Shown here: one piece after another, positions 13,929-41,500 of the stretch
Layout of the letters: each line of letters begins with the position of its first letter
Position numbering within the stretch: position 1 is the stretch's first letter
From: an uncultured Alphaproteobacteria bacterium
GTDB lineage: Bacteria > Pseudomonadota > Alphaproteobacteria > Rs-D84
NCBI GenBank assembly: GCA_944392595.1
Contig: CALXXD010000008.1
Coordinates: 1 to 42,621, forward strand
DNA: 42,621 bases
Direction: 5' to 3'
Position numbers and translations under genes: made by a program
Notes under the pieces: generated by a model
What the model was told of the DNA's origin: nothing
What the model saw: only the letters and a program-made list of their open reading frames with translations
Databases searched by the model: none

Positions 13929-14009
13929 TTATTACAAATCCAGAAATTAATTGGAATAATAACAATTGCCTTCCAATACATATTCACCAGAGCTGTCTGC
14001 CCCGGTTAT

Positions 14010-14412
14010 AAAAAACACCCGCACAAGGCGGGTGGTTTTATTTCTGGGGCGGATGACCGGATTATTTCGCTGCGCTTCATCACCTTGCAAAATTGTGCGT
14101 ACGCACAACCGGCGTACTTCCGTCCGCCTTTTTGCGGCGGTTCGACCGGCTTTCTCGCCGGTTCTTATCCGCATCCTTGCACATAAATAAAAACACCCCA
14201 AACAGGGTGTTTTTATTTCTGGGGCGGATGACCGGTCACCTTCGTTGGGCAATGAATTGCCCAACTTCGTATTGTTCGCGACTGCGCGCTCACCACTCGT
14301 ATTCGCTCGGCTGCGCTGACGCTTGCCTTGCGTACTCGTATGCGAACCTCCGGTTCGAACCCGACCCGTCCAGAGTTATAAAAACACCCGCACAAGGCGG
14401 GTGGTTTTATAA
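14010..14412 (-). repeat. array of tRNA-His 3' tails, terminators and inserted short elements
   Basis: This gene-free stretch reads best on the minus strand, downstream of tRNA-His. The last 17 bases of tRNA-His including CCA (plus strand CTGGGGCGGATGACCGG) recur at 14219-14235 and 14044-14060. Each copy is followed by a terminator hairpin; those at 14016-14034 and 14386-14404 share the CACCCGC/GCGGGTG stem of the true gene. Each tail is preceded by a different insert: about 79 bases at 14062-14140 (a second copy lies at 41314-41392) and about 110 bases at 14236-14350. Both inserts begin right after a T-loop-like TCGAA. The pattern suggests repeated integration of tiny elements at the T-loop of tRNA-His. 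Confidence 0.7.
14379..14408 (-). terminator. terminator of tRNA-His
   Basis: CACCCGC and GCGGGTG arms with a five-base loop, and a T run on the minus strand just after the tRNA CCA end. Confidence 0.7.
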
Positions 14413-14413
14413 C

Positions 14414-14491
14414 TGGGGCGGATGACCGGATTCGAACCGGCGACATTTGGTACCACAAACCAACGCTCTAACCAGCTGAGCTACATCCGCC
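14414..14491 (-). tRNA. tRNA-His (GTG)
   Basis: A full cloverleaf can be drawn. The acceptor GCGGATG pairs with CATCCGC, with an additional 5' G (G-1) opposite discriminator C73, the histidine identity feature. The anticodon stem TTGGT/ACCAA holds a loop with anticodon GTG, the T-arm is GCCGG TTCGAAT CCGGT and the CCA is encoded. Confidence 0.95.
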
Positions 14492-41288: not shown

Positions 41289-41500
41289 ACTATTCCTGGC
41301 GGAGACGAAGGGATTATTCCGCTGCGCTTCATCACCTTGCAAAATTGTGCGTACGCACAACCGGCGTACTCCCGTCCGCCTTTTTGCGGCGGTTCGAACC
41401 CTCGCCCCCGGGTTCGAATCCACATTATCAAACACAATAAAAAATCACGCCCATACGGGCGTAATTATTTATTGTGGCGGTGTGGAAATAATCTACGGCG
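41289..41500 (-). repeat. second tRNA-tail array with a copy of the 79-base element
   Basis: On the minus strand there is a T-arm-like GAGGGTTCGAA (end at 41393). Then comes the 79-base element (41314-41392, two mismatches to 14062-14140), then TCCCTTCGTCTCCGCCA, the 3' end of a tRNA (probably Ser-type) without its 5' part. Upstream on that strand, a further CACACCGCCACA tail is followed by a hairpin (41443-41460, ACGCCC/GGGCGT). The element thus interrupts a different tRNA tail at the same T-loop position as in the His array. Confidence 0.6.

Follow-up and report, generated by a model that had tools for sequence, protein, structure and literature searches.

tRNA-linked repeats (TLRs), long described in Escherichia coli, also stand behind tRNA genes of Candidatus Enterousia, a gut alphaproteobacterium, and in our estimate there is an even chance that they are recombination-driven cassettes, exchanged at their cognate tRNA genes and having no integrase of their own. 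The account starts from the array behind tRNA-His in a contig stretch of 42,621 nt, called the window, of the source genome (G000; 977 kb, 15 contigs, 39 tRNAs). What is new here is the non-enteric occurrence (a literature search found no earlier report of TLRs outside enterics), a fixed anatomy with a host-specific inverted arm, horizontal transfer and concerted tails.

The tRNA-His gene, which adjoins tRNA-Ala, and its downstream array all lie on the minus strand (Table 1). Leftward of tRNA-His follow a terminator, unit 1, tail copy 2, a second terminator, unit 2, tail copy 3 and a third terminator, the copied tail being the last 19 nt of tRNA-His, from T-loop A58 to CCA (AATCCGGTCATCCGCCCCA). 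An earlier note on this DNA had stated that the tail and its terminator recur twice downstream, and both recurrences were recovered (14238-14220 and 14063-14045), with a hairpin after each. The insert sizes it gave, 79 and 110 nt, are right if the count starts at the TCGAA of the second T-arm, the one borne by the element; from tail to tail the units measure 175 and 156 nt, because a terminator and an inverted T-arm are included as well. The two units have no core in common. Elsewhere in the window lies an orphan TLR with no tRNA body upstream, whose type-A core is 80% identical to that of His unit 2. A second orphan was seen near 7427 in L422, with a serine-type tail and an upstream tRNA whose body is gone and of which ...CCGCCA is left. 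Both orphans stand behind DNA with repeated TTCCCTG motifs.

Table 1. Features of the tRNA-His array and of the orphan TLR in the window (position 1 is the first nucleotide of the window).
Feature	Position	Strand	Basis
tRNA-His (GTG), intact, host gene of the array	14414..14490	-	ARAGORN; Rfam RF00005, 68.9 bits
Terminator 1, head of unit 1	14375..14413	-	Inverted repeat I1 and sequence
Unit 1, inverted copy of the tRNA-His T-arm region, GGGTTCGAACCGG	14350..14374	-	Inverted repeat I5; own-tRNA inverted score 23, rank 2 of 39
Unit 1, type-B core, GGTTCG^CATACGAGT...GCCCAACGAAGG; type also at Cys and Trp	14239..14343	-	Core comparison
Tail copy 2, 19 nt, A58 to CCA; starts TGACCGG..., first two bases unlike tRNA-His	14220..14238	-	Repeat search
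Terminator 2, head of unit 2	14185..14219	-	Inverted repeat I3 and sequence
Unit 2, inverted copy of the tRNA-His T-arm/acceptor, GCGGATAAGAACCGGC	14157..14184	-	Inverted repeat I4; own-tRNA inverted score 27, rank 1 of 39
Unit 2, direct copy of the T-arm 5' half, GCCGGTCGA	14142..14150	-	Sequence
Unit 2, type-A core, three-way-junction fold with covariation	14064..14141	-	Structure alignment
Tail copy 3, 19 nt, exact	14045..14063	-	Repeat search
Distal end of the array: terminator 3 (hairpin 14044-14005) and decayed unit head ATAACCGGGGCAGACAGCTCTGG	13987..14044	-	Repeats; comparison with G041 (L099)
Orphan TLR: CCGCCA tRNA end fragment, terminator, T-arm-like segment, type-A core, tRNA-Ser tail copy AATCCCTTCGTCTCCGCCA	41297..41480	-	

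The units share one plan. A tail opens the unit and a terminator follows; next stands the host T-arm in inverted orientation, then the 5' half of the T-arm in direct orientation, which ends in GGTTCG, and last a structured core of about 80-110 nt that runs up to A58. The breakpoint lies in the T-loop, where the earlier note had placed it, at 57^58 (before A58) at nearly all sites. The note's view that each newcomer restores the tRNA was borne out as well: the units bring their own tail and terminator, so that the tRNA is always whole. With a length of 76-181 nt they are also, as it had argued, too small to encode an integrase. The inverted arm is specific to the host, the own tRNA ranking first among about 39 tRNAs in 20 of 33 units, where 1.1 would be expected. 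The unit of tRNA-Gly-TCC (L006/L323), unlike all others, is without terminator or inverted arm and contains an unrelated insert (AAGTTGGGTAACCTTGCGATGC...).

When the search was repeated at every tRNA, a step that the earlier note had also proposed, tail copies were found behind at least 12 of the 39 tRNAs of G000 (Arg-ACG, Arg-CCG, Cys, two Gln, three Gly, His, Met and Trp, with Asn weak and distant). Partial ones are visible behind Arg-TCT, Pro-CGG, Pro-GGG and Leu-CAA, and the congener G058 has TLRs at 9 of 40 tRNAs. Across four congeneric genomes, the tRNA's own tail recurs within 900 nt downstream in 29 of 133 cases, compared with a rate of 0.5% when the tails of other tRNAs are looked for there, which excludes a chance origin of the copies. 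The comparison took in the small genomes of about 150 sister species, and other families of the order have units too, with different cores. A motif search with the type-C core returned 76 copies on 67 stretches, all from alphaproteobacterial or uncultured proteobacterial gut assemblies, the named ones being Candidatus Enterousia. Fifty-eight of these copies lie within 700 nt behind a same-strand tRNA, with 12 tRNA kinds represented (most of the other 18 have too little upstream sequence), and in 47 the host tRNA's tail comes next, with at most 3 mismatches. Near-identical tandem units with up to 4 tail copies were noticed in L114 (G079) and L106 (G060), which points to amplification between direct repeats. 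Immediately upstream of tRNA-Val-GAC (L155, G000:C1, about 2190-2280) lies a tRNA-Val-like copy that has decayed.

Similarity between units of different tRNAs is mostly confined to the core, from GGTTCG to the unit end (query positions 98-184 in one search). At least four core types could be distinguished: type A at His, Arg-TCT, Pro-CGG and one Met; type B at His, Cys and Trp; type C at Arg, Pro, Tyr, Ser, Lys and Gln; and type D at Gly-CCC and Tyr. A fold with the stems P1 (ACC/GGT), P2 (GCAAAA/TTTTGC) and P3 (GGCG/CGCC) is common to 18 type-A cores from several species and tRNAs; 98.1% of its pair cells are standard and 7 pairs have double changes, a result matched by 0 of 500 shuffles in a control that leaves relatedness in, while slid versions pair at 30-46%. 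The structure of the type-A core is constrained, as RNA or as folded DNA. Covariation in a type-C hairpin was judged by eye only; RNAalifold found no consensus in a mixed alignment of types B, C and D, and an Rfam scan of the units returned no known family besides tRNA. In 21 of 35 cases, where 6.4 would be expected, a core has its nearest relative at the same tRNA in a different genome; another tRNA of its own genome provides that relative in 0 of 35. Cores group by tRNA and never by genome, which indicates that core lineages are tRNA-bound and that jumps between tRNAs are rare or old.

Compared across species (the earlier note had proposed a comparison of strains for insert number), the units differ in number and order. 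The Cys unit is found in G000, G058 and G041, with none in G045; at Gly-GCC there is no unit in G045, one in G058 and two in G000; the Arg-ACG unit is intact in G000 and G041 and absent as such in G058. The Trp unit, present in G000, G058, G045 and G041, is missing in G152, a sibling, where most simply it would have been lost. The His arrays are none, A, B, B-A, A-B or A-B-A with swapped heads according to species (B-A in G000 and G041, A-B in G074, A-B-A with swapped heads in G073). Including its terminator, the Arg-ACG unit is 99.4% identical between G000 and G041, compared with 78.6% for the 1.45 kb upstream of the tRNA; judged by these identities, at least one unit was clearly passed whole between species, terminator included. 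The Cys unit is likewise 93.9% identical, against 73.2% in its downstream flank; the Trp unit of G041 is an exception (78.7% against 88.9% in the flank).

At Arg-ACG of G000 it is the distal terminator that resembles the one in G058 and G045, the proximal one being new. New proximal terminators at Arg-ACG and His mean that, at these two tRNAs at least, the unit brings the terminator along. Simple target-site duplication was rejected on this ground, although at Cys, Met and Arg-CCG the proximal terminator is identical to the distal one, as that process would suggest. Moreover, the tail copies keep pace with the gene: those of tRNA-His have 0 mismatches to the host tRNA from C61 on at 14 of 15 copy-bearing loci, among them those of three species with an acceptor changed to GCGGGTG/CACCCGC. 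In tRNA-Met, 8 of 77 positions differ between G152 (L339) and its sibling G000 (L025), and the tail copy has changed along with the tRNA; the TLR core at this locus is 98.6% and the flank 94.8% identical. As read from these comparisons, the tails evolve in concert with the host tRNA, which old scars would not do. On the minus strand of the His locus L116 (G107), a divergent tRNA-His (GCGGGCG/CGCCCGC) and a GIY-YIG ORF precede an old tail of the usual tRNA-His (CATCCGC), an arrangement that replacement of the entire tRNA would leave.

The TLRs of E. coli are the closest known system (Egan and Landy, 1978; Rudd, 1999; review PMC8144298). E. coli K-12 has 22 TLR units at ten loci, one to five per locus; 18-19 bp at the 3' end of a unit repeat the terminal part of the tRNA or 5S gene before it, and the units linked to tRNAs are without an accepted function (PMC8144298). 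For the TLRs rrA, rrB and rrF, which have a terminator on either side, RNAs are made that bind to Hfq and CsrA, and the repeated 3' end has been suggested to be an RNase E signal (PMC8144298). The units of Candidatus Enterousia likewise lie immediately downstream of the tRNA gene, end in 18-19 bp of its 3' end and occupy many loci with one to five units each, His reaching 4 tail copies. Among the E. coli loci examined (tyrV, argV/Z/Q, lysV and rrnB), the tyrV and lysV TLRs agree with the Enterousia units in the A58 junction (GAGT^AATCC), the inverted T-arm and the direct T-arm half, and the lysV TLR also in having an internal terminator. However, the core sequences are not similar, and Enterousia differs from E. 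coli in its alphaproteobacterial host and in having TLRs at about a third of all tRNAs. The RtT sRNA (Rfam RF00391, the tyrT transcript) is the tyrV TLR of E. coli, and "RtT sRNA" is also annotated at lysV; the RF00391 covariance model found no match among Enterousia units, either at the gathering threshold or at E up to 5. By sequence and layout, the Enterousia units are of the same kind as E. coli TLRs and not of the same sequence family. In E. coli strains, lysV has 0, 1 or 2 TLR units of 156 bp between flanks that are otherwise nearly identical (L253-L256), its direct repeats taking in tail and terminator, and tyrV has one to four copies.

Tycheposons, ICEs and phage satellites are elements with tyrosine integrases that reside in tRNA genes. 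They too insert in the tRNA 3' half, the newcomer restoring the tRNA and the old tail being left behind, and TLR units do contain a tRNA 3'-half identity block that restores the gene. In contrast to these elements, TLR units are shorter than 200 bp and gene-less, being too short to encode an integrase, and one family serves many tRNAs. REP/BIME repeats are short, structured and non-coding, and are moved by RAYT (Y1) transposases. TLRs are short structured non-coding repeats as well but differ by their strict association with tRNAs, and a Y1 domain (PF01797), as expected for RAYT/REP or IS200/IS605 systems, occurs in 1 of 13 TLR-bearing genomes, which is not G000.

The search for a mover covered tyrosine recombinases, Y1 transposases, reverse transcriptases and GIY-YIG nucleases. 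G058, where nine tRNAs bear TLRs, encodes no more than two tyrosine recombinases, as many as XerC and XerD would account for, so a resident dedicated integrase was rejected and the T-loop-specific tyrosine recombinase that the earlier note had suggested looking for did not emerge there. For the comparison with integron cassette arrays, which have an integron integrase (IntI), tyrosine recombinases were counted as a family: most TLR-bearing genomes hold two or three (G000 has three), two being expected for XerC/D. The Y1 transposase is absent in 12 of 13 TLR-bearing congeners, and reverse transcriptase, present in 4 of the 13, is absent in 9; neither was retained as a mover. Single-domain GIY-YIG ORFs lie 100-130 nt behind some tRNAs, but these start after CCA as a separate element, and G058 has one GIY-YIG match, presumably UvrC; this nuclease was rejected too.

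The GIY-YIG ORFs belong to a second element family located directly after the tRNA CCA, in which a structured leader (CCCTTCGC...GCGAAGGAGTGTCCACCGTAGCCTTGGCGTAGGCGGAC) precedes a nuclease ORF of 80-115 aa. It was seen at L161, L162 and L165 (Gln-TTG), L163 (Thr-GGT), L172 (Gly-CCC) and L116 (His), and ORF-less leaders stand in G000 behind Lys-CTT, Val-TAC, Val-GAC, Trp, Gly-TCC and Gln-CTG. As to vectors, no viral contig contained the type-C core, and a lone type-A pattern match among them (L428), with no tail or tRNA, was taken as chance; phage records gave no convincing TLR matches. Of the plasmid matches, the one examined, a 50 kb "plasmid" with the lysV unit, carries gltX pieces and looks like mis-assigned chromosome. 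No excised circle or transfer vector was seen.

In the cassette reading, a unit would come and go through recombination at its cognate tRNA gene, in the 3' arm, and the 19 to about 60 bp of identity in the repeated tail and terminator would assist. The tRNA would be rebuilt each time, so that the site stays open and arrays may grow, shrink and be homogenised, and horizontal spread would consist in the uptake of DNA carrying the same tRNA. The tail-and-terminator repeats make ordinary homologous recombination possible (loss, duplication, homogenisation), and many array changes look like its outcome in the sequence comparisons. The excess of own tails downstream of tRNAs, the filled and empty orthologous tRNAs, the reordering, the Arg-ACG transfer, the concerted tails, the host-ranked inverted arm, the 0, 1 or 2 units at lysV and the scarcity of enzymes all favor this reading. 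On the other hand, homologous recombination alone leaves unaccounted the same core type at 12 isoacceptors and the inverted arm of the own tRNA. The first arrival of a core at a different tRNA, with that tRNA's tail and inverted arm, would fall outside the model and may need a further enzyme. Nor need a passive cassette be more conserved than neighbouring DNA or have covarying stems, as is the case here.

The main alternative is that the units are small structured RNAs, transcribed when the tRNA terminator is read through and kept by selection, with the tail copy paired to the inverted arm as a processing signal. The earlier note held that the same arrays at identical positions in distant relatives, with conserved stems, would argue for a functional RNA; the same arrays were found at the same tRNAs, with conserved covarying stems, within the compass of the genus, which makes such an RNA a serious rival. 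The type-A covariation, conservation of the units above the adjoining flank, tail copies kept identical to the tRNA and, by analogy, the E. coli TLR transcripts and their suggested RNase E signal would all suit it. Yet the unit is dispensable at each tRNA, with clean absences or losses in sister species and E. coli strains, the cores differ (types A to D) between tRNAs of one genome, an intact terminator precedes nearly every unit, and one unit has passed between species, so that we regard this alternative as doubtful. The proposal of the earlier note, repeated site-specific integration of miniature elements mobilised from elsewhere, has held up as regards mobility, in the differing number and order of units and the one horizontal move, but not as regards a dedicated integrase. 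The mover, acting in trans, would be a tyrosine, serine or RNA-guided recombinase with the T-arm as its recognition site. Such elements would agree with a junction that falls precisely at 57^58 in many tRNAs, with generic cores that always sit between GGTTCG and A58 and with newcomers that have their own terminator at Arg-ACG and His, and inverted plus direct T-arm copies would suit site recognition on two strands. Considering the recombinase complement of G058, the prevailing absence of Y1 transposase and reverse transcriptase, and the rarity or age of jumps between tRNAs, we consider it unlikely. Finally, islands often sit at tRNA 3' ends and typically leave tail copies as scars, and the units could be what remains of ordinary tRNA-integrated islands whose interior was lost and whose ends have decayed. 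The recurrence of core families of the same size at a dozen tRNAs and in many species speaks against this, as do the covarying structure, perfect tails, tandem identical units and own-tRNA inverted arm, and it appears most improbable.

Returning to the cassettes, a broader reading, which we put forward tentatively, is that the TLRs of E. coli and Enterousia may be widespread gene-less structured mobile cassettes of the tRNA T-loop, in which a spare 3' end would keep the insertion harmless and spread would run by way of the cognate tRNA, with the inverted T-arm as address. To the TLRs known in E. coli since 1978, Candidatus Enterousia adds the comparative material: a fixed anatomy, filled and empty sites, transfer and tails that track the tRNA. 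Overall, the question of whether these repeats are mobile elements or functional RNAs becomes directly testable, also in E. coli, where the lysV unit is naturally absent, present or doubled.
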